From: Crossaster papposus
Taxonomy: Eukaryota > Echinodermata > Asteroidea > Velatida > Solasteridae
Direction: 5' to 3'
Assembly (NCBI GenBank): GCA_037893245.1
Contig: JBAIAA010000022.1
Coordinates: 930,001 to 994,000, forward strand
DNA: 64,000 nt
Part shown: piece by piece, positions 1,778 through 64,000 of the stretch
Position numbering within the stretch: the first letter of the stretch is position 1
How the letters are laid out: each line of letters opens with the position of its first letter
Position numbers and translations under genes: made by a program
Notes under the pieces: generated by a model
Seen by the model: the letters and a program-made list of their open reading frames with translations, nothing else
Told to the model about the DNA's origin: nothing
Database searches by the model: none

Positions 1778-2696
1778 GTAGGCCTTACTGTATTAAAAAC
1801 AAATAACGTTATATTTTTTAACAAAACCATTGACGTATCTTGGGAGGAGCTATAGCTAAACAATCAGCGAGACAAATTCTTAAATATTACCGTATTTACA
1901 GAGTTTTTCAGTCAGGATATTATATCTTTCCCAGTTATTTTAACACTAGTATCATACATTCTTATAACGACACTTTACTTTCGTCCCCGAACATTGCCTA
2001 GCTCAATTCTCAATTTAAAAAATAGTTATCAACGAATTCCATTCTAGATCAAGTATTATTGCAATTTGTATACTTTTCTGATTCCTCCTAAAATTGTGAA
2101 ATTCGTTTCACGGGGCTTTGGAAATTAAATAAAAAAATAACTAATGTTGGTGTTTTTTTTGTCGTTTGTTTTAAGACTCTTGGTCATTTATATACAAAAA
2201 TTAACCATAACGTCTGATAGTAAACAGAACAAAATGTAACGACAACAGCGTCTAAATCTATTAAAATAAAAACAAAGCAAAATACCCAAAACCACACATT
2301 AATTTACGACGAATCGCAATGCTCTAATTAAAATTATACTGCAACTTTAATCAAATCCCTTTGTAATTTTTGAAATTGAGAATCAAGAGTTGAGATCGAC
2401 GATGTTTGCGGACGAAATTAAAGTGCAAATATAATGAATTTCTGGAGAAGAAGAGAGGTGGGTTTGGCCCTACTTTATAGCTTGATTCAAAACCCGTACG
2501 ACACTCTTCCTCAAAAAAGTTGTTCCGTCAAATTTGTTTTGCCGCTTTATACAAACCGACCAAAACGAACATCTGAAGTTATTTTGTATGCGCTCTACCC
2601 GAGAACCTTTAAATTCATTTTTTTTTGCTTCTTTTTCTGTTTAATAATTAGTCCCTCTTGTGATTTATATTGTCTACTTTTGGAATTTTATACAGA

Positions 2697-5600
2697 ATGA
2701 AGATCTTGGTGGCAACCGTTCTTTCAATCGCCCTCCTTCTGGGTAACTCTGTCAAGCTCCGAGCTTCCGTCACTGGGCCGGTTGCCACGGACGGTGATGT
2801 TCCAGCGTCTCGGGCGTGTCCGATGTGCTGTCAGGGACCTGCTGCCGCACATGGTATACCAGGTTTAAATGGGCAGATTGGACCGATGGGACCCTACGGC
2901 CAGCCGGGGTCAAAGGGCGACGCAGGTCAGCCAGGTCAAATTGGCGATATCGGGCCAATCGGTCCAATGGGTGAGCGGGGAGCACTTGGGAACGCTGGGC
3001 CTAAAGGTGACGATGGGATAGGTCAGCCCGGCAAGATAGGTCCGAAAGGTCTGCAGGGTGTAGTCGGAAGTCCTGGTCAGACTGGTGTCAAAGGTCAGAA
3101 GGGTGAGCCAGGGGAGACACCAGATGACTCCAACCAGCGGGTAGCATTCACCGCGGTGAGGACGAGCTACTCTGATGCCTCTACGAGTCACGACCACTGA
3201 TCTCTATAACTGGATAGGTCGAGCGTACATTGATGGGATAGCGAGCCGTGAAGTCACCGGCGGCCATGATGGGATATTCAAAACATTGCCTTCGTGCATG
3301 CAAAAGACGCGTAGACACGTCGAGAGTGAGACAGTGGAAGCAGCGATGGTGGGTAAAAATGCATTAAAATCCTTTGTAAATAAGTAAATTTATTAAATAA
3401 ACTTGCAGACTGTGCGATCAGTATCTATCTTTGTAAAAAATGTCAGGACTACGGTTTTAAGAGAGATTTAGGAGAACATTGTTGGGCGAAAACGATATTT
3501 TCGTTTCCACATGAATTCCAGCGGGATTTTTTTTTCATATTGTGGTCCTATCCATCATTTTATCTGAAAGAAAAACTGGGATATTTCGAAAGAACAGTAG
3601 ATTTATAGAATCAGTTGGTCTAGGATACCCTTACAATATGATTGAATTCCACAATACAGGTATTTTCAGACCAATTTTGTACCCATTCTATGAAGACTGT
3701 CCCGTTGACTTACGTCAAACAGTTCATGGTGGTAATTTGTGTACACATTCGTACACAACATATTGTGTCATGAACTATTTGACGTGCATAAATTTAATGT
3801 TCTGTAGAATTATCCCAATATCGCAATGATCACAGTTTTTTCTCTCACAATTCTGAAAGTGTAGAGCCACCTATTAATAATAATAATAGTATTATTAAAT
3901 GCATGGTGTAGGCCAAGGCTATCATGGTGGAACTTAGGATGTAGACACGTATTTCCAATACTTCAGAACAATTTCATTTTCGCCCACAAATCTCTCTTAA
4001 AAACGTAGTCCTGATGACATTCCTTGCAGTGCTCAAATTAAATTTCACTCTCTGAAGAAATGGGTATGCCAAATAAATTGAGAATTTTGTGTTTTTAAAA
4101 TAGCGTCATGTTACAACATTCTTTCCTTGGCATTTAATTTATACCTGTATTTTTTTTTCTTTGTACACTACAGCTAATTGGTTTACCCAAGTCCACTTCT
4201 TGCTACTAAGATGTCAGTCTGTACAGCTTATTACGGCTGGACAAGTCATAGGACGAACTGCTCCCATTATGACAGAGGGACAACAGATGACAGCGAATGT
4301 CAAAACCTATTTTGTTTAACCATCAGTAAATACGGTAGCTTAATTGACCAACTACGTTTTCCAAGATAAGCTATCTCGGTGTTCCACATTTCTTAGATGT
4401 GCTGCAAATATATTGCAGAACTCTGCATCTTGGCATTTCATTTTTTAACAATATAAGTACAGATAATAAAACAGTCGCAACAGTCACAAACCTATCTTTG
4501 TAACATGGAAATATATTGAACATGTGTTTTATGAAAACTGACAAATCTGGTTAAAATTGTATTGTTAATATTCAAAGCAAATTATACAGATGTTAAAATG
4601 ACATGGATTTACCCAGTCAGTGTTCTCCACAATCACTGGGTAGCGGCCGCCCTGTGTACATGTTACGCTGTTCTGTCATATTTGTATGCTGCCCTGTTAA
4701 AATGTTATGCCGCCCTGTCAAATTTTGCTTTTCAATCATGGTTTTATTTTGCTTTCTTACAAAACAACAATTGTGGTGTACAAATCTTTAATATTGTGTT
4801 CATATCGCACAAATATCTAGAAACACTCACAATTCAAAGTTAAAGCCGTACAAGGGTGTCCTATTAAAATTTGGCCTGTGAAGAATGCTGCCAAATGTAT
4901 CTTTGCATAGTATCAACAAATATTATTCTAAAATGACATCGCAAGTTTTGTTTTGGTTTTAAATTCATAAACAGTCCGGGGTTAATTGTTTTTTATTTGG
5001 TTTTATAACATCAGTAAACAATACATAATAAGCATATTGTTACTATGGCAGTAGTTATTACATGTTATATGTAGTGTATCAATGTAAAATAAAAGCATAA
5101 AGCAAAATTGAATCCATTGTGTGACTTATGTCATTATTTACACATGTGATTGATATTTTTAATTGTGATTTATTTCAAGTTTCTCAAGTTCATAGTTTAA
5201 GCCATAGAGGTGTATCTTTATTATACAGCTCTATGGTTTAAGCTCAAAACCACATAATTAATTTTTTCTGTCCACTTGTCCAGCAAGAATTTTTGGGACC
5301 CTTTCTAAAAAATTTACTAAACATTAGGTTGATTCCAAATCTGGACACTGCCTTAAAACCCCACGAACAAACCACATGATGTGCCAATTAAATTTTCCTG
5401 AAACACACTGACATTTGTTCAATTTTTTCAACATTTTTTTATTTTATTATAAAATGCACTTTTTAGTGTCTGGATATAAAATTAAACCAACAATTTCAAG
5501 AATTTCCTTAATCCAAAAAAACTCGTTTTGCCTTTTCCTTGTTCCGGTTTGTGCATAAGGTTATGATGTGGATTTCTTCCCCCCACCTCCCCCCCCCCAA

Positions 5601-6318
5601 AAAAAAAAAATAAATAAATAATTTAGAAGTTGGAAATTCTTGAAAATACTTGTCCGACATATCCCATAGACTTTGCACTGCATTGCATCGTCTCACACGA
5701 ATGTCTCATATCTTTTCAAAAAAATAGGCCTATTTAACATTGAAAGTTGGCGTATACAGGTAATTCTTGGGTGTTATTATGTTTAACTTGATTTTCCTGA
5801 TCAAACTGGATCGTTTTTGCGACGTTAACTTCGTTTCCTGTGATATTAAATGAGTTTTCTCGGTCGTGCGCTATACAAACGTGTGTACGCCTGCAATGTT
5901 TTGAATATCCCAATATGGCCGCTGATGGCTTCACGTGCAGAGCCGCTCGACCTATCCAGTTATAGAGATCAGTGGTCACGACACCCGTTTGCCCTTCCAG
6001 CAGACCGAGACGCTTCTGCCGGGTACCAGCTTCGATCTCGGGACCGGCACGTTCACGTGTACTGTGCCGGGCACCTACGTGTTTACGTTTTCTGTGAACA
6101 AATATTATTCCAGCAGCCTGTACGTTCATCTCCGGAAGAACGACGACTTTGTTGTCTCTGGCTATAGCAATGATTTAAGTCACCATGAGCAGGTGTCTGG
6201 GAGCGCGGTGCTGGTTCTGCAGCGAGGAGACACGGTGGGGCTTACCGTGTACGGTAGGGCGTATATTGATTCCACCGACTACACATCATTCAGTGGCTTC
6301 CTCCTTTACCCCGAATAA
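2697..6318 (+). CDS. Secreted collagen-like C1q-domain protein, coding exon split by a TIR element
   Basis: The coding exon starts after TATACAG at 2695, with ATG at 2697. Residues 1-24 form a signal peptide. A CPMCC cysteine cluster (41-45) probably links chains. Gly-X-Y repeats run from about 53 to 139 with one short break near GDDGIG. A C1q domain starts at about 147. The frame is cut after 3194 by an inserted element and resumes at 5983, giving 166 plus 111 residues, 277 in all. The second part has the usual C1q strands and ends in FSGFLLYPE. Family knowledge: such proteins form trimers, are secreted, and act as lectin-like recognition molecules in invertebrate immunity. AATAAA signals follow the stop at once. 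As it stands this allele would be truncated after a few extra residues unless the insert is spliced out. Confidence 0.85.
3187..3194. repeat. Left 8-bp target-site duplication GTCACGAC
   Basis: GTCACGAC at 3187-3194 recurs at 5975-5982 on the other side of the inserted element. Removing the element and one copy restores the C1q reading frame with no loss of bases. An 8-bp duplication is usual for hAT transposons. Confidence 0.85.
3195..5974. mobile_element. hAT-like TIR element inserted in the C1q exon
   Basis: The ends are perfect inverted repeats of about 31 bp starting CACTGATCTCTATAACTGGA. They continue as imperfect inverted repeats for roughly another 70 bp, including GGGATATTCAAAACATTGC on both arms. 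The 2780-bp interior has only short open frames (for example 3542-3829), none of them a recognisable transposase, so it looks non-autonomous. The 8-bp flanking duplication points to hAT. Perfect ends and duplication suggest a recent insertion. Confidence 0.8.
3442..4022. mobile_element. MITE nested inside the hAT-like element
   Basis: GTCAGGACTACG followed by TTTTAAGAGAGATTT at the left is mirrored near 3990-4022. The arms also share GGGCGAAAA. The interior has no gene that I recognise. It is a smaller inverted-repeat unit inside the larger insert, so it was carried there or landed later. Confidence 0.5.
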
Positions 6319-8576: not shown

Positions 8577-8581
8577 CCTAC

Positions 8582-8725
8582 CAGGAATTATGCCTTGTAG
8601 GCACTGCAGGAGTCTATCTGACGTTGGTTGATCACCGTGACCAAAGTACCAGGCCTTCATTTGCTCCTTAGTTGTCATATCTTTCTCACCCACTTTACCG
8701 TGACCTATTTTCAGGTACCACTTAC
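8582..8725 (-). CDS. Unidentified phase 1-1 exon, copy 1
   Basis: The minus strand shows an acceptor (TTTTGTAG) and a donor (CCTG before GTAGGTG) around an open 144-nt segment, with a phase-1 border at each side. The 48-codon product includes KWYLKIGHGK, then MTTKEQMKAWYFGHGD, then LLQCLQGIIPG. I do not recognise the domain. It is preserved in the second copy with at least one silent change, which fits coding constraint or simple recency. No partner exons are clear. Confidence 0.45.
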
Positions 8726-9429
8726 CTACAAAACATTTGGGGAAAGAAAACAAAATTTAGCTACATGTATTCAATAGGAATAGTATGGTGGTTTCATTGG
8801 GACTAACAAATGATCAGCGCGGAAGCCAAGCACAAGTTCTCCTCTCGCTTGGTTGCAGCAAGTGAGTTAGGGGAGACTTGGGTTTGAGTCACCAAACATT
8901 GAGTCTGAGTCAGAGTCCCAGTCACCACTGTCGAGTCTTGAGTGCGAGTCCTGAATCAAACAGGTAGAGTCCGAGTCCGAGTCATAAGTCAAATGGTTGG
9001 GTCTGAGCAATATTTATTGGTATTTGCCAGAGATTCAGTAAGAATTCAAAATCCAAATTCAGTAAGAATCAAATATCTATATTACTAAAATTGGAAATTC
9101 ATAGCTATTTTCCCATTCATAGCTATTTTATAGCTATTCCTATTTTGCAATCTATAGGTTGGTTGAGCACAAACATTACCGTTGTGACTTTGAATTTACA
9201 AGGCGGGATTCAGACCTATACACGTCATGCATATCATTTGCATATCTCAGGAGGGAATCTCAGGAGGTACGCAAGATTCGCTGCTCGTAATACTGAAGTC
9301 TAGGAACCAGACTAGGCTAGACATTGGAGGAGTGTGTTTACTCATAAAGATGTCAAAATCCAGCTGGATTATCTAATGGCCTGTTCTCTTTATGATTATA
9401 CATTCATTAGTCACATATACATGGTAATA

Positions 9430-9890
9430 TTTACCGTTTGGGTACGCCGGAATCGGTGGAAAAATGTAGCAGTCTTGTCCCAAGTCCATTTCTCCCTCAT
9501 GAACGTCTAAGGAAGGCATGCCCTGGAGCCTGTCCCTGTCATCTTCTATCAACTACAGAAGCACCACGACTTGAGGCTTGGCCGTTATATCAAGTTGCAA
9601 CCCAGCGGGTAGTAGGTCTCCCACAGCAGTTGAGGCCCCAGTGCGGAGCAAGACTTTCTTAGCATTGATGGTCCTGTCGGCTTCGGTGGCTAGTGTAAAT
9701 ACGATGTGATAGATCGTCAACGAGGTCGTCCAATATTCTGCATTCTTGGCGCTGAGCCAAGGTCTGCTGGGCAAAAAGGAGCTTCTGCGGGCTCAGATGA
9801 TGACACTGATCCCTGTCTGGTTGGCACCATCGAGTAGCTTACGGCCGAGGGAACCATCGTGTGCAGTCAGCCACAACACCCCAACGTCCC
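9430..9890 (-). pseudogene. Broken coding-like block, copy 1
   Basis: After a possible acceptor near 9892 the minus strand reads DVGVLWLTAHDGSLGRKLLD and further open pieces, ending in IFPPIPAYPNGKYY. Stops and frame changes separate the pieces. The same block recurs at 13523-13985 with nearly the same lesions, so it was already broken before the duplication. The family is not recognised. Confidence 0.4.
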
Positions 9891-10019
9891 TGTAAAAATG
9901 TATTCCTACAGAGAAAATGATAGGTAACCAACTATTTAAGGTGTCATGTGATTAATGGCTGTTGACCGGTTCCCAGCCATTTTCCACTCGATAATAAAAG
10001 CAAGTACTTAGTGAAATAT

Positions 10020-10250
10020 TCCAAATACCATCTAAGCTCCCGGGGGAGCATACAGCTCGATGCTGCCATTTCGGCGCAAAGAAGCTATTCCAATGACCAT
10101 CTCTGCCCTCACAGGTACCCATTTACGCCTGGGTGGGGAGAAGCAGAGGCACACGCACAACCCCAGGTTGGACTCGAACCCACAACCTGCAGAATTACCA
10201 GCAGACCACAAATGAAATGCTCCCGGCCACGATGCCACTCCACAGCCCTA
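10020..10250 (-). mobile_element. tRNA-derived SINE, copy 1
   Basis: The minus strand begins with a tRNA-like head: an A-box-like GTGGAGTGGCATCGTGG and a B box GGTTCGAGTCC (10169-10179). The body contains CCCAGGCGTAAATGGGTACC, a module common in marine deuterostome SINEs. It lies just upstream of the foldback element. The duplicate is at 14113-14345. Confidence 0.65.
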
Positions 10251-10299
10251 AATAAGTGGTCTTCTACAATTGAAAACTTTGATATGAGAGTTTTTTTAC

Positions 10300-12050
10300 G
10301 GAGCTCTGGAAGTGCCATCCGACTTGTTTACATCCTGACATATTTTATCCCAGGATGACGACATAATAGAGGCAAAATGACGACATCCTTTAATATTTGT
10401 TCGCGTAATAGCGACATCCTGAGATAATATATCGCGAGATGACGACATGCTGAAAGTAGGATGACGACATGCCGAGATAACATATCGCGGGATGACGACA
10501 TGCTAAAAGTAGGATGACGACATCCCGAGATAATATATCGCGGGATGACGACATGTTGAAAGTAGGATGACGACATCCTGAGATAATATATCGCGGGATG
10601 ACGACATCCTGAGAGTAAGATGACGACATCCTGAGATAATATATCGCGGGATGACGACATGCTGAGAGTAGGATGACGACATCCTGAGATAATATATCCC
10701 GGGATGACAACATGCTGCTGAAACCATGTAGGATCCTGATTAGATCAGCAATACGAAAGCTTAAAGGGACCATCTGCGTTTCCGCGTTTCAGAATGAAAA
10801 ACCATGTAAAGACGGACACTTGGTGCAATGCTCGCAGTCACATTACGATAGGCCGGGTAGCAGCGCGGCGAGTCTCTGCCTCGATTTTTGTCATACCCCT
10901 TGCGAGGTTTTATGTTAATGAGGCTTCCCTTTGAGGGGCGGAGTGGTTTGACAACAAATTTCAAAAATTATTTTGTCCCATTTATCACAGAAAATAAACA
11001 CAACCACACACATAATGTTGTTGTAAACATTATACTTTATTGATTTAAGCAAACAAAATCCGTATTACATGTTTCCTTTAATCAATCCGTATGGTAGGCT
11101 TTGTCTATTTCCGTGACGCTTTTGCTTTGGCCTTGACGCTTTGACTTTGGTCGTGACAGTTGTGGACCACCGTAGTATTTCGTTAAAAGACGTCTTCTTG
11201 AGAGATATGATTTATTATCCTGGAAAGACGTCTTTCCAAGATACGATTATCATGGAAAGGCGTCTTTTTGTGATACGATTATCATAGAAAGACGTCTTTC
11301 TGAGATACGATATTAGGAAAGATATATTTCCGAGATACGACATCACGGAAAGACATATTTTTATATCAGTATTCCGTCTTTTTGAGATAAATTATCTCAG
11401 AAACGCGGAAACGCGGATGGTCACTTTAAGCTTCCGTATTGCTGATCTAATCAGGATCCTACATAGTTTCAGCAGCATGTCGTCATCCCAGGATATATTA
11501 TCCCAGGATGTCGTCATCCTACTTTCAACATGTCGTCATCCCGCGATATATTATCCCAGGATGTTGTCATCCTCCTTTTAGCGTGTCGTCATCCCGGGAT
11601 ATATTATCCCCGGATGTTGTCATCCTACTTTCAACATGTCGTCATCCTGCGATATATTATCTCAGGATGTCGTCATGCTATTTTCAACATGTCGTCATCC
11701 TATTTTCAACATGTCGTCATCCCGCGATATATTATCTCAGGATGTCGTCATCCTACTTTCAACATGTCGTCATCCTGCGATATATTATCTCAGGATGTCG
11801 TCATCTTATTTTCAACATGTTGTCATCCCGTGATATATTATCTCAGGATGTCGTCATCCTACTTTCAGCATGTTGTCATCCCGCGATATATTATCTCAGG
11901 ATGTCGTCATCCTACTTTCAGCATGTCGTCATCATGCGATATATTATCTCAGGATGTCGCCATTACGCGAACAAATATCAAAGGATATCAGGATGTCGTC
12001 CTGAGATAAAATATGTCAGGATGTAAACAAGTCGGATGGCACTTCCATAT
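10300..12050. mobile_element. Foldback element with satellite-like arms (unit 1)
   Basis: The outer ends are inverted copies of a sequence with GGAAGTGCCATCCGACTTGT. Inside each end lies an array of a 53-bp unit: minus-like orientation at 10330-10715, plus-like orientation at 11478-12020. The unit combines GATGACGACATCCTGAGATA with ATATATCGCGG and a spacer. Further in, a shared inverted segment carries GGATCCTGATTAGATCAGCA and GGACCATCTGCGTTTCCGCG. The single-stranded form could fold into a very long hairpin. No transposase is visible. The many short open frames over the arrays are repeat artefacts. Confidence 0.75.
11185..11400. repeat. Degenerate tandem repeat in the foldback centre
   Basis: Five or six units of about 38-42 bp contain GGAAAGACGTCTTTC and GAGATACGATTATCAT. 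AAGACGTCTT is itself palindromic. It fills much of the unique centre of the foldback element and is missing from the shorter foldback at 14392-15480. Confidence 0.6.
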
Positions 12051-12211
12051 TTTTCCGTATTTTTCAGATGAATAACATTTTTGACTAACAAATAGTCACT
12101 TTTCTCACTTCCAGAAACTTGTTTTAACCTCAAATTGATTCTGGACTTTTCAATGTTTCCTCTTTATAAAAAAAAAGTAGATAATCCTATCCCCATTTTT
12201 CCTCAAAAGTA

Positions 12212-12650
12212 CGGAGCTCTGGAAGTGCCATCCGACTTGTTTACATCCTGACATATTTTATCTCAGGATGACGACATAATAAAGGTAAAATGACGACATC
12301 CTTTGATATTTGTTCGCGTAATGGCGACATCCTGAGATAATATATCGCGGGATGACGACATCCTGAAAGTACGATGACGACATCCTGAGATAATATATCG
12401 CGTGATGACGACATGTTGAAAGTAGGATGACGACATCCTGATATAAGATATCGCGGGATGACGACATGTTGAAAGTATGATGACGACATCTTGAGATAAT
12501 ATATCGCTGGATGACGACATGCTGAAAGTGGGATGACGACATCCTGAGATAATATCTCAGGATGTCGTCATTACGCGAACAAATATCAAAGGATGTCGTC
12601 ATTTTGCCCTTATTATGTCGTCATCCCGCGATATCTTATATCAAGATGTT
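12212..12650. mobile_element. Truncated second foldback element in unit 1
   Basis: It starts with the same end (GGAGCTCTGGAAGTGCCATC) and 53-bp arm repeats, turns around near 12550, and is cut at the duplication junction near 12650. The complete counterpart is at 15650-16306. Confidence 0.7.
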
Positions 12651-12665
12651 ATGCCTTGTTATTAC

Positions 12666-12809
12666 CAGGAATTATGCCTTGTAGGCACTGCAGGAGTCTA
12701 TCTGAAGTTGGTTGATCACCGTGACCAAAGTACCAGGCCTTCATTTGCTCCTTAGTTGTCATATCTTTCTCACCCACTTTACCGTGACCTATTTTCAGGT
12801 ACCACTTAC
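12666..12809 (-). CDS. Unidentified phase 1-1 exon, copy 2
   Basis: Same 48-codon exon as at 8582-8725, with acceptor TTTTGTAG. The donor is GTAATA instead of GTAGGT, because the duplication junction falls just beyond it. At least one change (ACG to ACT, Thr) is silent. Function unknown. Confidence 0.45.
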
Positions 12810-13522
12810 CTACAAAACATTTGGGAAAAGAAAACAAAATTTAGCTACATGTATTCAATAGGAATAGTATGGTGGTTTCATTGGGACTAACAAATGATCA
12901 GCGCGGACGCCAAGCACAAGTTCTCCTCTCGCTTGGTTGCAGCAAGTGAGTTAGGGGAGACTTGGGTTTGAGTCACCAAACATTGAGTCTGAGTCAGAGT
13001 CCCAGTCACCACTGTCGAGTCTTGAGTGCGAGTCCTGAATCAAACAGGTAGAGTCCGAGTCTGAGTCATAAGTCAAATGGTTGGGTCTGAGCAATATTTA
13101 TTGGTATTTGCCAGAGATTCAGTAAGAATTCAAAATCCAAATTCAGTAAGAATCAAAGCTCTTTATTACTAAAATTGGAAATTCATAGCTATTTTCCCAT
13201 TCATAGCTATTTTATAGCTATTCCTATTTTGCAATCTATAGGTTGGTTGCGCACAAACATTACCGTTGTGATTTTGAATTTACAAGGCGGGATTCAGACC
13301 TATACAAGTCATGCATATCATTTGCATATCTCAGGAGGGAATCTCAGGAGGTACGCAAGATTCGCTGCTCGTTGTAATACTGGACACCATTTGAAGTCTA
13401 GGAACCAGACTAGGCTAGACATGGGAGGAGTGTTTTTACTCATAAATATGTCAAAATCCAGCTAGATTATCTAATGGCCTGTTCTCTTAATGATTACATT
13501 CATTAGTCACATATACAAGGTA

Positions 13523-13985
13523 ATATTTACCATTTGGGTACGGAATCGGTGGCAAAATGTAGCAGTCTTGTCCTAAGTCCGTTTCTCCCTCATGGACGTC
13601 TAAGGAAGGCATGCCCTGGAGCCTGTCCCTGTCATCTTCTATCAACTACAGAAGCACCACGACTTGAGACTTGGCCGTTATATCAAGTTGCAACCCAGCG
13701 GGTAGTAGGTCTCCCACAGCAGTTGAGGCCCCAGTGCGGAGCAAGACTTTCTTAGCATTGATGGTCCTGTCGGCTTCGGTGGCTAGTGTAAATACGATGT
13801 GATAGATCGTCAACAAGGTCGTCCAATATTCTGCATCCTTGGCGCTGAGCCAAGGTCTGCTGGGCAAAAAGGAGCTTCAACGACTCAGATGATGACACTG
13901 ATCCCTGTCTGGTTGGCACCATCGAGTAGCTTACGGCCGAGGGAACCATCGTGTGTAGTCAGCCACAACACCCCAACGTCCCTGT
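13523..13985 (-). pseudogene. Broken coding-like block, copy 2
   Basis: Duplicate of the 9430-9890 block, with small indels relative to it. It reads as separate short frames on the minus strand and is not recognised as any family. Confidence 0.4.
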
Positions 13986-14112
13986 AAAAAATGTATCCCT
14001 ACAGAGAAAATGATAAGTAACCAACTATTTAAGGTGTCATGTGATTAATGGCTGTTGACCGGTTCCCAGCCATTTTCCACTCGATAATAATAGCAAGTAC
14101 TTAGTGAAATAT

Positions 14113-14345
14113 TCCAAATACCATCTCAGCTCCCGGGGGAGTATACAGCTCGATGCTGCCATTTCGGCGCAAAGAAGCTATTCCAATGACCATCTCTGCC
14201 CTCACAGGTACCCATTTACGCCTGGGTGGGGAGAAGCAGAGGCACACGCACAACCCCAGGTTGGACTCAAACCCACAACCTGCAGAATTACCAGCATTCC
14301 ACAAATTAAATGCTCCCGGCCACGATGCCACTCCACAGCCCTAAA
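14113..14345 (-). mobile_element. tRNA-derived SINE, copy 2
   Basis: Duplicate of the SINE at 10020-10250, with the same head and body. The B box has one change (GGTTTGAGTCC). Confidence 0.6.
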
Positions 14346-14391
14346 TAAGTGGTCTTCTACAATTGAAAACTTTGATATGAGAGTTTTTCTA

Positions 14392-15480
14392 CGGAGCTCT
14401 GGAAGTGCCATCCGACTTGTTTACATCCTGATATATTTTATCTAAGGATGACGACATAATAGAGGCAAAATGACGACATCCTTTAACCCTAACCCCCTAG
14501 GCCTTACTTTGGGCTAAAGAACTGCGTACTACAGAATACTACTTAATATTTTGTAGCATTGGGTCCCTCCGTGACTGATGATTGGGTGTGTACTAACAGA
14601 GTGCAGATACTGCCAACTACAAAATACTAATAGTAGCAATACAGGTCAGTAATACTTACCTGGCAAAAAATGCAGTAGTCCAACCTTGACCCATTGTGTC
14701 CCAAGTTACAATTTTTGCCTTCTTATTCCTCCATGAGGCTACACAGCATACATGGGCAATACACACTCAGCAAGCAGAGGGACCCAATGCTAAAAAGTAC
14801 TACGAGTGCAATAAGGGGTGAAGTACCCAATACTAAAAATTACTACAGGCATTGCACAAAAGTCAGTGAGAGAATTGCATACTACTTTTTACTACTAGTA
14901 GTAAAAAGTAGCATTAGGTAGGGTTAGGGTTAATATTTGTTCGCGTAATGGCGACATCCTGAGATAATATATAGCGTGATGACGACATGCTGAAAGTAGG
15001 ATGACGACATCCCGAGATAACATATCGCGGGATGACGACATGCTAAAAGTAGGATGACGACATCCTGAGATAATATATCCCAGGATGACAACATGCTGCT
15101 GAAACTATCTAGGATCCTGATTAGATCAGCAACACGGAAGCTTAAAGTGTCGTCATCCCGCGATATATTATCCCAGGATGTCGTCATCCTACTTTTAGCA
15201 TGTCGTCATCCCGGGATATATTATCCCAGGATGTCGTCATCCTACTTTCAACATGTCGTCATCCTGCGATATATTATCTCAGGATGTCGTCATCCTACTT
15301 TCAACATGTCGTCATCCCGCGATATATTATCTCAGGATGTCGTCATCCTACTTTCAGCATGTCCTCATCACGCGATATATTATCTCAGGATGTCGCCATT
15401 ACGCGAACAAATATCAAAGGATATCAGGATGTCGTCCTGAGATAAAATATGTCAGGATGTAAACAAGTCGGAAGGCACTT
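14392..15480. mobile_element. Foldback element in unit 2
   Basis: Ends and 53-bp arms match the 10300-12050 element, but the centre is reduced to one copy of the GGATCCTGATTAGATCAGCA segment. The left arm is interrupted at a TTAA by the 14487-14929 insert. Confidence 0.7.
14487..14929. mobile_element. TTAA-target element with telomere-like ends
   Basis: The 443-bp insert begins CCCTAACCC and ends GGGTTAGGG, flanked by TTAA on both sides (14483-14486 and 14930-14933). Unit 1 has the empty site CCTTTAATATTTG near 10390. Further inverted segments include CATTGGGTCCCTC and its complement. TTAA duplication is the mark of piggyBac and Kolobok families. No transposase is present. Confidence 0.75.
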
Positions 15481-15649
15481 CCATATTTTCCCGTATTTTT
15501 CAGATGAATAACATTTTTGACTAACAAATAGTCACTTTTCTCACTTCCAGAAACTTGTTTTAACCTCAAATTGATTCTGGACTTTTCAATGTTTCCTCTT
15601 TATTAAAAAAAAAAGAAGATAATCCTATCCCCATTTTTCCTCAAAATTA

Positions 15650-16306
15650 CGGAGCTCTGGAAGTGACATCCGACTTGTTTACATCCTGACATATTTTATC
15701 TCAGGATGACGACATAATAAAGGTAAAATGACGACATCGTTTGATATTTGTTCGCGTAATGACGACATCCTGAGATAATATATCGCGGGATGACGACATC
15801 CTGAAAGTACGATGACGACATCCTGAGATAATATATCGCGTGATGACGACATGTTGAAAGTAGGATGACGACATCCTGATATAAGATATCGCGGGATGAC
15901 GACATGTTGAAAGTAGGATGACGACATCCTGAGATAACATCTCAGGATGTCGTCATTACGCGAACAAATATCAAAGGATGTCGTCATTTTGCCCTTATTA
16001 TGTCGTCATCCCGCGATATCTTATCTCAGGATGTCGTCATCCCACTTTCAACATGTCGTCATCCCGCGATATATTATCTCAGGATGTCGTCATCGTACTT
16101 TCAACATGTCGTCATCCCGCGATATCTTATATCAAGATGTTGTCATCGTACTTTCAGGATGTCGTCATCACGCGATATATTATCTCAGGATGTCGCCATT
16201 ACGCGAACAAATATCAAACGATGTCGTCATTTTGCCTCTATTATGTCGTCATCCTGAGATAAAATATGTCAGGATGTAAACAAGTCGGATGGCACTTCCA
16301 GAGCTC
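15650..16306. mobile_element. Complete second foldback element in unit 2
   Basis: Inverted ends GGAGCTCTGGAAGTG and CACTTCCAGAGCTCC bound two short arrays of the 53-bp repeat that turn around near 15945. This is the smallest complete form of the family here, at about 650 bp. Confidence 0.75.
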
Positions 16307-16797
16307 CGTACAAAAGCTCTTGCAGAAAGGGCAAAACAGACTTTCGGCATGCGCAAGTCTACAATCCGTAACCTCTTCCCGCATCTTGTTGACGTCAATG
16401 GTTCACAGGTTCACAGTACGCGTGAAATATTCGCACATGCATTCACACGTGCGTGCATTTCTCTCTCACCTGTCAATCGTTCAATATCACTGAACCTTTG
16501 AGCTGCTCGTCTGCCAAGTTCTCCCGATTCAAAACTTCTGCTGATTCCACTAAATGCTCGTCCCTCATCAAATACAGACCGGCTTTCATAAATCTTAAAA
16601 AAATAACCAGAAGATATACAATAAAGACGTATTTTAACTTTTTTTTCCGAACGGTGGTTGTATATAATTACAAAAGCACTTCCTGCACAAAAACCTCGTT
16701 TTCTCTGTTTGGCTTATGATTGATCCTGGGTCTTAATCTCCTCGCAGGAGATTACAGGGAAGGGCTACCCACATAAGTTACTGTATATATCATTCAT
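16307..16797. other. No recognisable gene
   Basis: AT-rich flank of the duplication. I see no domain, splice pair or element ends in it. Confidence 0.5.
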
Positions 16798-21354: not shown

Positions 21355-24352
21355 TTACACGTACAGAAACATGTCATCAACTGAAATGTCTGTCAATATT
21401 TCTGCAACTGTTTGATATACTGGCTCATCTTCACCATGGAACATGCACCTATACTCAATGGCTTTTCCTGGTTTTTTGATCATCTCCAGTATACATCCCT
21501 GACACATCATGTCTCCTTTATCAGTTGACCACTTCTGATTAAATCTGAAATTAACCAAACATGATGGGTCTTTAATGGCAATCAGAATTGCTTCTTTCTC
21601 TTCTTCAATTTCTACATGTGTGAGTTCTGTCAGGTACTGAATAAGTTCATCTTTTGTTGCCTTACTGTACGCTATCTTCCTTGATGGTATGACACCAAGT
21701 ATATCAACTCTCAACTTAATTTGGGATTTTATAATGGCTGTAGCTTTTGTTTTAGACAGTGGTTGTACTCCAGTATGTATTTCTTCATATGTTTCCCACA
21801 CCCCAAACTCTAGTATGTTTTCTATGATCTTTTCCTTCTCATCTCTTTTGTTGTTATCTCTTGCTTGTATTTTTTTCCGAGATTCTTCAATTTTGTCATT
21901 GAAAGATTTCTGAAGTTCTTTTTCTCTGTTTTGTTCTTTTTCTCTAATTGTTCTTCCTTCTTTAGTGGCCTCTGTGATAATGTCCGACCTCTCTTGTGAT
22001 GACCTGGATTTCAGAAAGTTCTCATTCACTTTAAGTGAAGCAAATTTGCTCTTCTGTGCAATTTTGGCAGGTCGAGCGCTGTATGCTTGCCGGCTTCTTG
22101 CATCGTATGGAGCAAATACACGCTCCCCAGAAATGTTGTTACTGGTGCAGGAACGTGCCTGTGTTTCTAGAGCTTCTGTTGGGTCACAGAACTTCCCTCC
22201 ATCCAGGTAGTCAGCAAGTTGACGATGTATAACATCTTTGGTTTCATTGAGAAGACCGGTGAGAACATCAATGGTCTGATGATCGTACGCCGTTGGTTGA
22301 ATGAGTTTGCAGTATTTCGAATCCTGTTTGGTAGGTGTGTTGAAGGCAGTTATATCAAAGCCATGGATAAGACTGGCTGGATTACATAATGATAACATAT
22401 CAACAGTGGCTTGAAATACTGAACTAGTGTCAAGAATGCCGTGTCGGGTACCTTGCCACCGCATCCAAGGGCATGTTACATACTTGTCAAGTAGGCCTAA
22501 TGCACGTAGGATTGGTTGCAGGTTTCCTTCTATGAGGCTGTTGTTGATGCTCAAGTGCAGATCATTCCTAGGTTTCATGGTGCTTGTGAAGAAGCCTACT
22601 ATCCCATCTGTGTATGTATAGACCAAACCCGCATTAACAAAAAAAATATTAAATCTGTTGCCCACCCACCTTGGATAAAGAGTTGAGTTTTCCCCTCCCC
22701 CAAATCCCTTCTTCCTCAAATACACCGGTAAATCCTTTGGAAGTCCGCATGCTGCGTCATGAAAGAGTTTGTCTGTTGCCCGTATTAATGCCTGTGTGTT
22801 GGATTCACCTCTCTTCTGAAAAGGATGTTTCCCACCCTCTTTAAAATTTAACTGTTCTTCATAACTTCGTACCCATTTACCACATTGCCTGTGTATTGTG
22901 TCCAGCGGGTGCATCGCACATCTAAACGAATTGAGCGAGTGACCAGTGACTTCTTCCAACAGTCTGTCAACTTTATTGTTGGTGACACAACGATCTGTCA
23001 TAGTGTTTGTTATTTTTGATAACAAGCCTGAGTCGACTTCATTCACACACTCCTGTACTGTATGCATGCTACATACTCTTTCGCTGTGCCACCAACAGTT
23101 TCTTTTACCCCTAGTGTGTACGAGTTATTTTCATCGCCTAACTCTACTTCTACAAGATGTCGACCATTTTTTGTGGTGCCATCATATTTTATAGTTAAAT
23201 TTTCCTTTTCGCGTAGTTGTTCCCTCAGATACATATTGGACACAGCTTCCATCTCAGAAGAAATCCTCTTCTGTGTACTTATTGACGGCAAGTTTCCTTC
23301 AAACTGCGAGTCCGTCATTTTCTCAATTACAGTGTGAATAGCTGGACCGACCTTACTCTCTGAAATCCCGAGACTTTGAAGGATCATTGATGTTTCCTTT
23401 ACATTTGGATGAACTTTTCTTCCAACTGTGGTGGGAATTGTTGAGATTACTTTGTCTTTCTCTTCTGCAATACACATATCATTTTCAAGTACTGATATGA
23501 CTTGTGTGCTTTGTTTCAGTTTGCTCAGTGTTGTCTGCAACGTGGCTGTCAAATGTTTAGTGTCTACACGTGATGCTTTTGATGGTTTGCTTTGGATGAC
23601 TTTGTGCTTATTCTTTTGGTTCTTTTTCAACTGTTTGAGTTTTTTTCCCTTAACTTGGCATGATGAACATTTCTTGGATTTGAGAAGTCTACGCAAATGT
23701 ATTGTTTGAGTTCTCCAATGTTTTGCCTGATCAATTTTTCTCTTGAACGATTGAATGACATGCTTGACTTGACCTATCTTGCCAACAATATCGTACACCT
23801 TTTTAAGCTTCTCTGATGCTTCTTTGTTCTTGCTTTCTGTAGCAGCAACATGATTTCTAAGTTCATGAATTGTTTGCCGTAGCTGTTCAAGTTCAGTCTT
23901 TTGTTTGCTATTTTCATCAACTAGCTCAGCAACTGTAACCTCCTTTACACCTTTATCGTCTAGATGTACATGTACACGCTTTTCAGATGGGAGAGGATTG
24001 CCTTGATCAAGCACCAGTTCCCTTTTTCTTGGACCTGATGGAGGGATGTATGCATCAGCAAGGTACTCTTGAAGAACAAGCCTATCACCAGGTTTTGAGT
24101 TCTTTTGAAGAGCCACTTTTTTGCCTTAACTGCAGCAAAACTTGTCCGCACAGAGTCAGGCTTAAAATAACAAACGTCAAAAATGAACGACATGCGAGTT
24201 GCAATATCTGCCCATTTCAAACCTTTGACTCGTCTCTTCCCAGTCATTTGAGTGAAGACTTCAAACGCTACCTGATTAGTTAGTGACGATCTGGACACCT
24301 CTTGAAATGGACCCGCCGATGTACGGATGACTGGACCCCCTGGACCTGCCAT
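21355..24352 (-). pseudogene. Protein of a repetitive, unnamed metazoan family, in three frames
   Basis: Reading starts at ATG 24352 and continues in three successive frames to a stop at 21355, about 1000 codons in all. One frame change lies in an A run near 24120 and one near 23060. The first part has MTGKRR and WADIATRMSF. The second has a Lys/Glu-rich coiled coil and a CSSCQVKGKK motif, then KYDGTTKNGRH and YTLGVKETVGGT. The third has NTMTDR, then CAMHPLDTIHR, a charged coiled coil and a C-terminal CQGC motif. I recall many copies with the NTM-DR signature in cnidarian, mollusc and echinoderm genomes, and that abundance suggests a mobile element. A catalytic role for the conserved D residues is only inference. 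No TIRs were found at its ends. Confidence 0.55.
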
Positions 24353-33127: not shown

Positions 33128-34098
33128 ACCCAAACATGGGGAAAAAAATATGTTACACGGGAAGTATTTACGATTTATGCAAAATAGGCATATTGTTTTA
33201 AAAACTTCGTAGGGCTCGACATTATTTACTATGCCTTAAGGGATCTTCATGCCAAATATGGTGCTTTTATCCACCAAGTAACGGTAATCTCTAAATATAA
33301 CATTAAGCTACCTGATTAAAATATCCTGATAATCCTTACATTCAACTATGTGAACTTTTCAACCTGCCCACACATTATCATAGGAGAACTGTTAACGACT
33401 GTTTTCTGTATATAAACACATTAGTCAGGGAGCTTATGGTGATCCGTAGGAAATGAATGATTAGAAGATCCCACCCACCTAGTCATGTTATTTAGGTACT
33501 AGAGAGCACAAAAAACCATGTTGGCAATTTTGAAGTTTTGGCAGAGGGCGGCCATCTTGGATTTCAAAATGGCCGCTATATACATCTTCATTATGCCATA
33601 ACTCTGGCTCTGAATGCCGTGCAAAGCTGATTTTGGAGCCAAACCCTACATTTGCCATGATAAGGAAGCAGTTCAACATACATCTGATGTGATCAAAGTA
33701 AGTCATATTTGGTTTTTAGCATTATTTATTCAAAAATGGTCACCAGTATGTCATAATAGTAGTGTATCCTAAGCGTATCTTGGTACAGTATATGATAATG
33801 TATGCATTTAGACCTACATACCGATTTGTATTAAGGGTGTGAAGGGAGGGGGTAAGAACCAACTTGTTCGTGGCCATGACGTTATCCTTGCTCAACCTCT
33901 ACTGCTACACCTAACTCTACAATTAGGTTACTAGGCATGGTCTTAGGAACTTCATCTTGTTCTTCGGTCAAGGGTTCCTCCACTATCTTGGGCTGGTACC
34001 CCCACGTCTCAAAATTCTCGCCGGTGTATGGCTTCAGTCGGTCGCCGTGAACTACAACCACCCTACTCCCAGGCTTCAGCTAAATCCGGTAGGTCACA

Positions 34099-34865
34099 TC
34101 AGAGAGTCTGTTGACCACCAAGTATGGTCCTACCCATCGAAGTTCTAGCCTTCTTCCCTTCTTCCTCGCCCTCGTGCTTGTACAGCCATGCAAACTGGCC
34201 TTCCTTTAGGCTTTCGCCATGTACCCTGTGATCGTAATTTCGCTTCTGGTTTTTGGCACTCTGCTTCAGGCACTCTCTGGCCCTGCCATGTGCCTCTTGC
34301 AGATTCTGCCGTAACCTCTGGGCAAAATCTGTCGCTGTTGCGTCCTCTACTGTAGGACCCTCAACCAGCAAATCATTTTGAAGCCTCGCCTCCCTTACAA
34401 ACATCATCATGTTTGGAGACTCGCCAGTGGACTCTTGGGGAGTGCACCGATAAGCAAAACATGCGTACGGTAAACACTCGTCCCAGTCACGCTGTCTCCT
34501 CCTCGGATCAATCATCACAGCAACCATGTTAATGGTTCCCAGGACCTTACACATCCCGCCAAACACCGCCGACTTAAAGTTTGTCTCCTGATCGGAATGC
34601 AATTCCAAGGGAATGCCAAACCGACAGACAAACTCACTGACAAACTTGTTCGCTACCGTCTCTGCCTTAGCATCAGGCAGAGCGTATGCCTCCATCCATT
34701 TGGAGCAGTAGTAACCAAATACCATGATCCAGACGTTGCCACTGTCACTCCGGGGGCCGGGGAGTGGCCCCAGCAAGTCCACAGCCACTCTCTCCATGGG
34801 CTCGCCCACCAAATACTGTTGGATCGGGGAAACTCTCCTCTTCGCAGGAGATATCCTCTTCTCAC
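34099..34865 (-). mobile_element. Fossil Ty3/gypsy pol piece: integrase region
   Basis: The minus strand resembles a Ty3/gypsy integrase core and tail, with a DLLGPLPGP-type start, the FGIPLELHSDQ region and the RRQRDWDECLPYACFAYR region. It is an old, broken copy with several breaks in the whole pol. No LTRs or gag were seen. It belongs with the piece at 35742-36299. Confidence 0.75.
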
Positions 34866-34939
34866 ACAGCTCGCAACATCTGATGAATTTTTGATTTTGA
34901 TTTCCGTCGGTCAGCAGTAGTTCATGAGCCTTTCGTTAT

Positions 34940-36299: not shown

Positions 36300-36801
36300 A
36301 TAGTGTCTCGTCGATACGAGGGACAGCGAACATAACTTCTGTCCAATTACACATGTTGCATGTGTACAACTTACAGCTACAATTATTTGTTAATTATAGA
36401 TACTTTTGGCCACATACAATTCTTGAGACATCGAAAGGAAAACATATTCATCAAAAATAAAACAGTGCAGCCATTTTGAAGAGCAAGATGGCAGCCATTC
36501 ATGTTTTCTTTCCTGCAAATACAAATTGTAAAGTTTCAACCTTTGACATAAACAATAGGGGGTTTACAGCCTCAAAGATTGATTTCATATGACATTTAAA
36601 CGTTGATTTAGGCAAAAAAGAGGCTAAAAATGGCGGCCATTTTGAAATCTAAGATGGCCGCCCTCTGCCACACTTAACATTTTGCCAACATGTTTTTTCT
36701 TATTCCTGAGGGTCTGATTTAGGTATCTAGATAGGTGGCATGTTCTAATCATTCGGTGCCTACGGGACTTAATTTCGTGTCATAAGCTCCCGGACTACAT
36801 T

Positions 36802-38610
36802 CACAATCACATCATTCCAACAGATGTCAACCCAATTAATATTATGCCCCTAATCGGCGTACTATGTCAGCTCCTAAACACAGTTTGCATGTTCCATGGG
36901 GTCGGGATGAGGCGACTAAACGAGGGTTTATCTCAAGAATTAGTCGTCTGCCTATAACCGACTTCATGAAATTGAAAGATGCGATGCGTTAGGAGCCCCA
37001 ACGCTAAACTGTTTTCGTAGTCAATGAGGGAATACAAAGCTTTGTCGTGTGATCATCCAGTTTAGGTCTATTGTCGAATTTGAAGCTCATGATACACTCA
37101 CTGTAGGTTGTTAATTTTATTGTATGTACATAAGTTGTTTCTAATTGTTTTGTTTTACTGTCTTAATGTTTTGTACAATTATTTTAATCTGTAAAGCAAA
37201 TATATTTTAATACCAAATTCTACTTTATGTTTAATTTTGATTTTAAACTGATGCCCACAAGCTGCAGCTTAATCAAAACAACATTTTTTTTTTATTTTTT
37301 TTTGGTTTCCCGAATTAATAAATAAATAAATAAATAATGAAAATACCAAATAATTCTTCCATGAAATAACCAACCATTGTTTATACACATTTATTTCTAT
37401 GTAACGAAGAGATACGGATTGTAAAAAAACCACCACGGATTCAACGCAGTCCGTACAAAAAAATGGGGCTCGGTGTTTAGAAACGATAGAATGATCAATA
37501 CGTATAGGCAGTGTTCGGGCGGTCTGTTCTTGACTCGCGAAACTCGATTGTGCAAAACCCTGAATAATAGGTGGTGTGTGATCCTGTTCCGTGTGCAAGG
37601 TTCTTGGGTCGCGTTAAGGCGCGAGAACCGAGTTTCGCGTGTCAAGAACAGACCGCCCGACGAACCAGTCATGATCAGAGCAGTCAGAGTCATTATTGGA
37701 GTGACCCGGATGTACAGGGGCCGCGTGCGCAGAGTTCATCAAGTTTATGTTGTTTTGTCTGGTACGTGACTTCATTTTCGGTCTGTATTTCCTCCAAAGC
37801 TCTAGGGACCATTTTTTTATAAGCTGCTAAGCGCAACAAATTTTGAGCTGCTAATCACAATAAATTGGCTTAGCACAACAATTCTTTGCTCAGTTAAAAT
37901 GGTTACCAGTTTGGACTCCATGTGTTTTTCCTGGGCGCCTCTCAAATAAACTAGTAAAACATTCTACCTGAGGCTAAACCATTTATACATGTACTTGTAT
38001 GCATGTCTTGTGCTGAATCAAGTGAAAAAAAAAAAAAAAATAACCCCCCCCCCCAAAAAAAAACAACAAAAAAACCCAACAACAAACAAACAAACAAACA
38101 CCCCAACAAACAGAAACAAGCAGAAACACATTCTCATAACTTTAGTGTTCAAGCGGCTTTGACATTAAACCCCATAAATGCGTTACCATCAAAATGAATT
38201 TTAACAAAATGTCGAAACATTCGCAGAATACTATTTTTAAAACTTGATGTAGAGCGTAGAGATGTGGAACTCGATTTGTTTTCAAAATGTTTTGGTATAA
38301 TAGGTTCCCTTTAATAATATCGTGGCTAGTGTTTGTTTCATAAATGGAGCTCTACATACAACACACACTGAACACTGAACAAATCACGACCGGTGTACGT
38401 CATGTTTCTATCCACCAATCATAGTTGGTCACCCAACAAGTCAGTGGCTCGAGTGGTTTTTCAGTGGTTCTTTAATAATAGATCAGTTGCCATTGTTCTT
38501 TTCATAAGTATACGTTTACGCATTACCCAGCTGCCAAAGAAAAAACACGTGGTCTAAGTTCCTTTATTGCCTTTTCGCCATGCAAACCTTTGAATCTCAT
38601 CTGTCATCCT
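36802..38610. other. No gene recognised; small foldback and simple repeats
   Basis: A hairpin lies at 37514-37668 (GGGCGGTCTGTTCTTGAC in both arms). An A/C-rich low-complexity run lies at 38022-38110. I see no exon signals. Confidence 0.5.
37514..37668. repeat. Snap-back repeat
   Basis: The left arm reads CGGGCGGTCTGTTCTTGACT and CGCGAAACTCG, and the right arm is its complement. The centre of about 65 bp is unique. Confidence 0.65.
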
Positions 38611-38616
38611 TGCATT

Positions 38617-39112
38617 GGTCAGTTGTGAGTGTCAATCACAAAGCACACGTTTGAACGTGTCATCGATGACTATAACACGTCCGCCAATAAGATGTGTTAA
38701 TTTAACAGTGTCGGTGACTAAAAGTCACACTAACATAACTTCCGTCTCATAAATATTAAACAAGTCAGTGATGCGTGATTGACAGCGCACTAGGGACCAC
38801 GCATATGAACTTGTCATCGACGTCTATAAAACGTCAACCAATAAGATTTGTTCATTGTACAGTGTCGGTGACTGAAAGTCACATTAACGTAACTCCCGTC
38901 ATTAATATTAAACGAGTCAGTGGTGTGTGATTGACAGCGCACTATAGGGGCCAATCACAAACCGGGCAAAGTTTCTCAGTCACTGCTTAGGAAATCGATG
39001 ACAAGTTTTTAAGGCAGGAGCGCGCGCTTCATTCCTCACAACGATCGCAACTCATCTTCGCCTTTGGCAGGAGGACAACCAAAGAGAGACCTACAAGAAC
39101 GAGATTTACAAG
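38617..39112 (+). promoter_or_regulatory. Second copy of the C1q promoter repeats and exon 1
   Basis: Two diverged copies of the 144-bp promoter unit (from about 38640 and 38800) are followed by the exon-1 sequence and the same ACAAG before GTAAG donor at 39113. Spacing and order match the left end of the window. No signal-peptide, collagen or C1q coding sequence was found downstream within about 10 kb. Confidence 0.65.
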
Positions 39113-39241
39113 GTAAGATTCTGTGACAGATGGAAACATGCTCTTTAAGTCTTGAGATGGAATTAATGTTTTTATTCCTTCTTGATATGTGGTTCTTACG
39201 AAAGTATTTTTTTACGAAACTCATGAATAGAGTATGTATTG

Positions 39242-39556
39242 TCAAATGGTATGCTTTGCTGTCCACGTAAATGGTTGTAAAAGGCTGTTCACGTACTTAG
39301 GGTCCCCTATACATGTATACCCTTGGTTCTGTGCTTGATGTTCAAGCTGTTCCACCATCCTTCTGACATGCTTTAATGAGCACACACAGCCTACCCCAGC
39401 ATCATACCAAGCATCTTTTAGCATCATGTCAGAATCTGCCGCGTATCCTGTTCCAGAATCTTCCACCTCATGTCCACTGAACTCGGCACCATCCACAACC
39501 CATATGGTGTTAGCGCAAGCATCCCATCCTATTGATTTTTTCACCACTCCGTGCAA
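39242..39556 (-). pseudogene. Unidentified coding-like block, copy 2
   Basis: An open minus-strand segment of 104 codons includes IGWDACANTIWVVDGAEFSG and a C-terminal GDPKYVNSLLQPFTW. It is the better preserved copy of the block at 1092-1418. The TIWVVDG turn is faintly like lectin-type repeats, but I cannot assign it. Its upstream side is cut by the TIR element that begins at 39580. Confidence 0.4.
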
Positions 39557-39579
39557 ACCCTTAGGGCATCAGTCTTATT

Positions 39580-61761: not shown

Positions 61762-63155
61762 TCTATACTATAAAAGATGTTAAATTCGCCATCTTGTCCC
61801 TGGGCGCCGCCATCTTGGAACGCAGGGCCGCGCCATCTTGGCGCGTGGTTGGCGCCATGTTGGCTTTTGGTCGGGCGACTCGTCGCCACGCGCGTGTTCC
61901 GCCGGCGTCGGTGGGGCGGGGTGCCGGATCGTTCGCGACGGGGAATCCCCCGGGGAATAAGATTTTAAAAAAAATCGTATTCGTCCGAAGTGAGATTTAA
62001 AAGAAACGGACGTTACTGATAAACGCGTAATCGCTTTTCGATTGCCTGTCGATGTCTGTGGGCCTTTTTGCGTGAACTGTTGCGTTATTTTTGCATTGTC
62101 CTTGCCCGGAGTTCGGGCCGAAGCCTTCCCGAAATCGTACTACCGTAACTCGGTTGCCGAATTGTTGGCCGTTTGCGATTAAGCGGCGGCTACATGCGTT
62201 ACGCGAAGCCTTCGCAAATTGATTGTATCCGCCTTGCTTGCGCGGTGGCCGAGTTGGTGCCCCGTCACGTGTTATTTGAGCTTTATACTCCCTTGGTTAT
62301 TAATGCGGAGTTTGAGCGCCAGCTTCATTTTCGGCCTGAATTTTCTGTGCGTAGACCACATTGCAGTCACAGCTTGGGAACGTTAAAAAAATGATTTAGT
62401 CCTTTCGTGTTGCCTTTTGAGCAAATTTCTTTGCTTCACATTGTCGATACTTAAATATTACAACATTATCTGTCTCAAAACACTCCGAAACATATCGCTA
62501 TTGCCTCAATTTCAACTTTGATCGTGCAAAAAAGTCGCGAATTTGTATGGCGATGGTGGATATGAATATGCAAATTTTGAAACGTGACTGCAGTACGTAT
62601 GTTGAGGGCGCACTGTCAGACGGCCGGTCTGTTGGTTTTTTTAATCGTGATGATGTAAATCAGAAATCCCGAAGTGGTTTGTATTGTTTCCCGTACGATT
62701 CCTGTTAAAAATCACGAGACGCAGGCAGCTGCAAGCGAAGATGGACTGCCTATTGAGTATTATTAGTTCGGAATTCGGGAGTATTTTTACAAAGATTGTT
62801 TTTATTCAGAGTCAATGGTATTCTACGGAGCCCCTAAAGGGACATATGACGAATACAAATCACTGTTACGAAATAATTTGAGTTTTTTTCGTGCACTCAA
62901 AATAACTTATTTCGTGAGCTCGAAATGTTTTCGTGGACACGAAATGACTTCGTGGGCTCGAAAAAATCTGTTCGTGAGCTCGAAATAATTTCGTGCGCTC
63001 GAAATACTTTCTAGCTGGTACTCTACTCGCTAAGTTTCGCGGTTTGTTTGTCATACAATCCATTATGTTGTATTGTTAAGACGTCAACAGGGTGTATCTA
63101 AAGTTACGATTTCACCCAGCTAGCAGGTGCCGCGCGAAGCGCGGCATCCTGCTAG
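61762..63155 (+). mobile_element. Non-autonomous Helitron, copy 1
   Basis: It starts TCTATACTATAAAAGATG after an A. It ends with a GC-rich hairpin (TGCCGCGC, loop GAA, GCGCGGCA) and CTAG, followed by T. These are the Helitron marks (5' TC, 3' hairpin plus CTRG, insertion between A and T). The last 37 bases are almost one palindrome, CTAGCAGG to CCTGCTAG. 1394 bp, with no Rep/helicase gene. Confidence 0.85.
62883..63010. repeat. Palindromic tandem repeat in the Helitron
   Basis: Six or so units of TTTCGTG, two variable bases, CTCGAAA (each itself palindromic), spaced about 21-23 bp. It lies before the 3' end, where Helitrons often carry tandem repeats. Confidence 0.7.
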
Positions 63156-64000
63156 TCTATACTATAAAAGATGACAAATGCGCCATCTTGTCCCTGGGCG
63201 CCGCCATCTTGGAACGCAGGGCGCCGCCATCTTGGAACACAGGGCCGCGCCATCTTGGCGCGTGGTTGGCGCCATGTTGGCTTTTGGTCGGGCGACTCGT
63301 CGCCGCGCGCGTGTGCCGCCGGCGTCGGTGCGGCGGGGTGCCGGATCGTTCGCGACGGGGAATCCCCCGGGGAATAAGATTTAAAAGTGAGATTTTAAAG
63401 AAACGGACGTTACCGATAAACGCGTTATCGCTTTTCGATTGCCTGTCGATGTCTGCGGGCCTTTTTGCGTGAACTATTGCGTTATTTTTGCATTGTCCTT
63501 GCCCGGAGTTCGGGCCGAAGCCTTCCCGAAATCGTACTACCGTAACTCGGTTGCCGAATTGTTGGCTGTTTGCGATTAAGCGGCGGCTACATGCGTTACG
63601 CGAAACCTTTGCAAATTGATTGTATCCGCCTTGCTTGCGCGGTGGCCGAGTTGGTGCCGAGTTAGTTGTTCGCGATTGGGCGGGCCCGTCACGTGTTATT
63701 TGAGCTGGTGCCCCGATTTATACTTCCTTGGTTATTGCGGAGTAAACATAGTACCAGTTGAGCGCCGGCTTCGAATTCGTGCGCGTCTACCACGTTTCAG
63801 TCACAGCTTGGGAACGTTAAAAAATGATTTATTCCTTTCGTGTTGCCTTTTGGGCAAATTTCTTTACTTCACATTGTCGATACTTAAATATTACAACATT
63901 ATGTGTCTAAAAAACACTCCGAAACATATCGCTATTGCCTCAATTTCAACTTTGATCGTTCAAAAATGTCGCGAAATTGTATGGCGATGGTGGATATGAA
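63156..64000 (+). mobile_element. Helitron copy 2, head to tail with copy 1, cut by window end
   Basis: TCTATACTATAAAAGATG follows directly after the CTAG of copy 1. Sequence parallels 61762-62570 with many small differences, for example GCCATCTTGTCCCTGGGCGC in both and an extra CATCTTGG unit in copy 2. The 3' end lies beyond the window. Confidence 0.85.

Follow-up and report, generated by a model that had tools for sequence, protein, structure and literature searches.

What interrupts the coding sequence of a collagen-C1q gene in this 64-kb window (the whole stretch of DNA that was analysed), and what does the interruption leave of the gene product? The original prediction was that a C1q coding exon is cut by a transposon with terminal inverted repeats (TIRs) and an exact 8-bp target site duplication (TSD), that the insertion seems young and may be polymorphic, and that it may leave a truncated or null allele.

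The C1q gene and the boundaries of the insertion

The gene and the insertion comprise the following features:

2694..2695, + strand: possible splice acceptor ACTTTTGGAATTTTATACAG, pyrimidine-rich, directly 5' of the ATG (simple position-weight score)
2697..3194, + strand: first part of the C1q-domain gene, with signal peptide, collagen-like repeats and the first 17 C1q residues (166 codons; Pfam)
3187..3194, + strand: left TSD copy, 8 bp, GTCACGAC
3195..5974, no strand assigned: TIR transposon, apparently non-autonomous, 2780 bp, 34.9% GC
3195..3225, + strand: left TIR, 31 bp, CACTGATCTCTATAACTGGATAGGTCGAGCG, which begins CACTG and carries a premature TGA at 3198-3200
5944..5974, - strand: right TIR, 31 bp, perfect
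5975..5982, + strand: right TSD copy, 8 bp, GTCACGAC
5983..6318, + strand: second part of the C1q gene, the remaining C1q domain to the TAA stop, its frame undecayed

Joining the flanks over one TSD copy (2697-3194 plus 5983-6318) gives an uninterrupted frame of 277 codons from the ATG at 2697 to the TAA at 6316-6318, and the expectation that no base is lost behind the element is borne out by this open frame, which gains none either. The joined product is a secreted protein consisting of a signal peptide, a collagen stretch and a globular C1q domain; it matches Pfam C1q at 2.4e-23 over residues 150-274, covering the full profile, and Pfam Collagen at 1.9e-13, and among the solved structures to which its sequence is related are collagens, adiponectin, cerebellin and complement C1q. 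The element is positioned after residue 166, 17 residues inside the C1q domain. The GC content of the host coding sequence is 56.6% (0.566), whereas that of the element is 0.349; the window as a whole, which is evidently animal DNA, stands at 0.409. The candidate acceptor at 2694-2695 suggests a 5'-UTR intron, in which case the entire coding sequence would reside in one exon. A second C1q gene as an uninterrupted control was not found within the window, and C1q relatives in viral contigs were not confirmed.

Both copies of GTCACGAC are identical and bracket an element of exactly 2780 bp, the left TIR of which is the exact reverse complement of the last 31 bases, the two ends first differing at position 32. 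The identical duplication and the perfect ends confirm that a TIR element cuts the C1q exon. The interval first proposed, 3187-5982, holds a real insertion but takes in both TSD copies, and the element proper is 3195-5974. Similarly, the reading frame is indeed interrupted at the element, but one codon of the element (CAC) is read before the TGA. Scanning the window for inverted repeats that measure 11 bp or more and have an exact 8-bp direct repeat on their flanks, we found the element to be the sole match with a non-palindromic flanking 8-mer outside a satellite block at 10.3-16.3 kb; the other matches were satellite pairs within that block, or had palindromic flanks merely extending an inverted repeat. 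The same scan of 20 shuffled windows produced no match. That an assembly artefact created the insertion is hardly credible, since a misjoin would not be expected to yield at once an exact 8-bp duplication, inverted ends that are perfect over 31 bp and a continuous reading frame. The TIRs, the TSD, the joined frame and the Pfam matches agree with the predicted cut-and-paste transposon in a C1q coding exon.

Interior of the element and other repeats of the window

Because no transposase remnant was found in its six frames, the element appears to be non-autonomous; in a Pfam search at E values up to 0.1, the six-frame translation had no match. Its interior carries the following features:

3247..3289, + strand: left copy of a 43-bp subterminal inverted repeat, separated from the TIR by 21 bp
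5893..5935, - strand: right copy of the 43-bp subterminal inverted repeat, separated from the TIR by 8 bp
3231..3276, + strand: direct repeat TGATGGGATA at 3231-3240 and 3267-3276 (2 in the window, 0.16 expected)
3443..4014, no strand assigned: nested foldback-like segment, 572 bp, with its own imperfect inverted arms (27 bp, 96%)

The 43-bp subterminal repeats are 88% identical, their alignment scoring 61 compared to a maximum of 27 in 2000 shuffles. The TGATGGGATA repeats are putative subterminal protein-binding sites. The foldback segment, with a DNA folding z of -10, probably represents a second element that is older and was taken up into this one. The window contains one TIR pair only and no further TIR copy, no exact TIR match was detected in viral contigs, and the TIR sequence was absent from the literature searched. 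A subterminal motif encountered in 4 viral contigs was rejected, being unrelated sequence devoid of TIR similarity and in three cases the same locus. Also rejected, as a signature of the element, was the YY1-like motif GCGGCCAT of the subterminal repeats, since it is spread over many repeats of the window.

Each subterminal repeat contains one YY1-like motif, at 3260 and 5911. Allowing one mismatch, YY1-like motifs (GCSGCCATNTTG) are found at 21 sites in the window compared to 1.6 expected, and they frequently form inverted pairs or short arrays where repeats end (e.g., 33548-33576, 36467-36661, 54608-54814, 61806-61862 and 63200-63279). In lancelet, a motif of this kind is where YY1 binds the ProtoRAG TIRs (PMC7481187).

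A satellite of roughly 53 bp occupies 10300-16320 in both orientations, and embedded in it is a 1.8-kb direct duplication (8579-10393 and 12663-14486, 96.6%). The tandem repeat of about 145 bp at 1-781 has 0.9 kb of flanking sequence that recurs at 38602-39579 (88%); the two are copies of a repeat-bearing element. Another pair, at 61787-62261 and 63202-63658, shares 92% identity along about 477 bp, and a GCCGCCATCTTG array heads each member. Adjacent long ORFs of 589 and 360 aa at 21358-24125 (- strand), with no convincing Pfam match and, for the 589-aa ORF, no PHROG match either, resemble an unknown transposon protein that has decayed or undergone a frameshift. The region at 34102-34935 (- strand), matching the integrase core (rve) weakly and under the curated cut-off, is probably a decayed LTR retrotransposon. 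For the 652-aa ORF at 52549-54504 (+ strand), which has a Cys-rich C terminus, no Pfam, PHROG or viral-contig relative was found.

Superfamily of the element

As no transposase was recognized in the element, and no second copy in the window or in viral contigs, its class is judged by end structure, and by this measure the P superfamily is probably the best class, in the sense of a P-like end architecture rather than of proven membership. The 8-bp TSD is that of P elements, and the perfect 31-bp TIRs fall within the range of about 27-31 bp known from Drosophila and Anopheles. The P-type THAP, RNase H and GTP-binding domains gave no Pfam match in the six frames, as expected for a non-autonomous copy. 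In the Drosophila P element, perfect 31-bp TIRs and 8-bp TSDs are accompanied by subterminal inverted repeats, and the sites of the transposase lie at distances of 9 and 21 bp from each TIR pair member (PMC7776569). The subterminal repeats of the present element, spaced 21 and 8 bp from its TIRs, appear to reproduce this asymmetry, a likeness that was noticed post hoc. The insertion target, a single site only, matches the palindromic P consensus GTCCGGAC (PMC3276498) at 6/8 positions, a match reached by 5 of the 827 8-mers of the coding sequence.

The resemblance to known P-type elements is partial. The Drosophila P element, with its internally deleted non-autonomous copies, has in common with the element the perfect 31-bp TIRs, the 8-bp TSD, the subterminal inverted repeats, the end asymmetry (21 vs 8-9 bp), a total length near 2.9 kb and, at the one site seen here, a target resembling the consensus; however, here the TIR sequence differs past the first bases, the transposase gene is absent, and the subterminal repeat is 43 bp long and adjacent to the TIR, whereas the repeats of Drosophila P are 11 bp long and about 100 bp in. 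In Anopheles, where the TIRs of autonomous P elements measure 27-31 bp, P-derived MITEs have 8-bp TSDs and unrelated non-coding centres (PMC1562414). Those listed for Anopheles gambiae are like the present element in combining P-type ends and an 8-bp TSD with a centre unrelated to P, but they are multicopy and far shorter (about 205-675 bp by name) than its 2780 bp. The zebrafish P-like element Pdre2, or THAP9 element, likewise has an 8-bp TSD, TIRs starting with CA and subterminal inverted repeats, yet its TIR CATACCTGTCAAC is 13 bp, its subterminal repeats are 12 bp and about 400 bp away, and it encodes THAP9 (PMC10983969).

Among the alternatives, another superfamily, either a Mutator-like or foldback element with degenerate TIRs of roughly 95 bp or an element of Zisupton/KDZ type, is unlikely. 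The TIR together with the subterminal repeat could be read as one interrupted inverted homology of about 80-95 bp, and a foldback is nested within the element; however, the outer 31 bp are perfect and the homology then ends abruptly, and the TSD is 8 bp, while Mutator TSDs are usually 9 bp. Slightly less likely still is insertion by a hAT transposase, which would have the same effect on the gene. As hAT elements also make 8-bp TSDs, the duplication agrees with this assignment, and the site fits GTNCGNAC, the preference of the hAT element hobo, at 4/6 fixed positions, a motif family that is partly common to P (PMC3276498). Yet one would not expect a hAT element to carry a 43-bp subterminal inverted repeat spaced as in P, and the end CACTG would misfit the usual hAT start, CAGNG/YARNG. 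In addition, the published length of hAT TIRs is 10-25 bp (PMC3942097), a range exceeded by the 31 bp found here.

Based on our data we propose that a transposase supplied elsewhere, presumably of P type, would have inserted a non-autonomous cut-and-paste element at GTCACGAC in the only coding exon of a gene for a secreted collagen-C1q protein, and that staggered strand transfer would have duplicated this 8-bp target. Translation would then enter the left TIR by one codon and stop, leaving the signal peptide, the collagen stretch and 17 C1q residues. This explanation as a whole, a non-autonomous P-type insertion that produced a probable null C1q allele, is one that we favor with somewhat better than even confidence. 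Judging from the ends, P-type transposons with a Drosophila-like 21/8 asymmetry may exist in another animal, which alone would not be surprising.

Fate of the gene product and age of the insertion

Translation across the junction adds one His (CAC) and then meets the TGA at 3198-3200 contributed by the left TIR, and the predicted product is 167 aa long, one residue of which comes from the element, and lacks the globular head. ATTAAA or AATAAA hexamers are present in the element from 3363 onward, hence transcripts may also terminate within it. The expected truncation is thus upheld by the premature in-frame TGA, but a truncated or null allele follows only if the element is not spliced out. The haplotype carries a probable null allele, a step at which we infer loss of function.

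One feature of the host exon bears on splicing:

3156..3157, + strand: predicted strong cryptic splice donor GCG|GTGAGG in the host exon (99th percentile of window GT sites)

With this donor, or another in the host exon, joined to an acceptor in or just behind the right end of the element, the insert could act as a new intron and a near-normal protein could be made. The sequence offers 73 in-frame GT-AG pairs, the plausible ones among them joining donor 3156 to a candidate acceptor at 5940, 6000 or 6003, and TIR/TSD transposons that have become introns, termed Introners, are commoner in aquatic species (PMC9860276). Nevertheless we regard a new intron as improbable. Collagen codons (GGTGAG) by nature make strong-looking donors, and of the acceptors the one at 5940 is of moderate strength (89th percentile) and rich in purines, while the better one at 6003, which would yield 257 aa, costs the protein the beginning of its C1q fold. 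None of the pairs excises exactly the insert, and the GT of the TSD at 3187 is a poor donor; an exact intron from GT 3187 to AG 5972 (TSD to TIR) was discarded, as it leaves two bases over and breaks the frame. The most specific version, in which a P-type element serves as a fresh intron through 3156/5940 splicing, would give 278 aa with 11 early-C1q residues exchanged for 12 that are partly transposon-encoded, and we consider it more doubtful still. If it were true, the insertion would diversify the gene rather than destroy it.

The truncating insertion that we favor was also suggested to be young, which is weakly supported. Perfect TIRs give no date, because the source copy already had identical TIRs and selection for transposase binding and transposition keeps them so, but the undecayed downstream half of C1q does bound the age. 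In simulated neutral decay (substitutions plus 10% indels), the downstream 336 bp survives intact with a probability of 0.69 at 1%, 0.16 at 5% and 0.05 at 8% divergence, and the whole coding sequence with a probability of 0.41, 0.014 and 0.001, respectively. As the C1q half behind the stop is undecayed, the insertion would be younger than roughly 3-8% neutral divergence, provided that it inactivated the gene. We infer relative recency from this bound, which by itself does not imply polymorphism; what the intact half argues against is a neutral divergence above about 8%. Alternatively, the downstream half may be undecayed as selection still acts on it, the insert being spliced out.

The locus is a clean yet ordinary case of a transposon disrupting a gene of immune-recognition type, a phenomenon already known, and is of modest use as a marker of P-type transposons and of a possible null allele. 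In mussel, which has a large C1q family, the genes enriched for presence-absence variation include C1q-domain genes (PMC7653742), and for this reason the loss of one C1q copy need not be costly. The two cases are alike in concerning C1q-domain genes, of which invertebrates have large families with dispensable single copies; they differ in that here the loss would come from the insertion of a transposable element into one copy. If polymorphic, such an insertion would contribute to presence-absence variation within C1q families.
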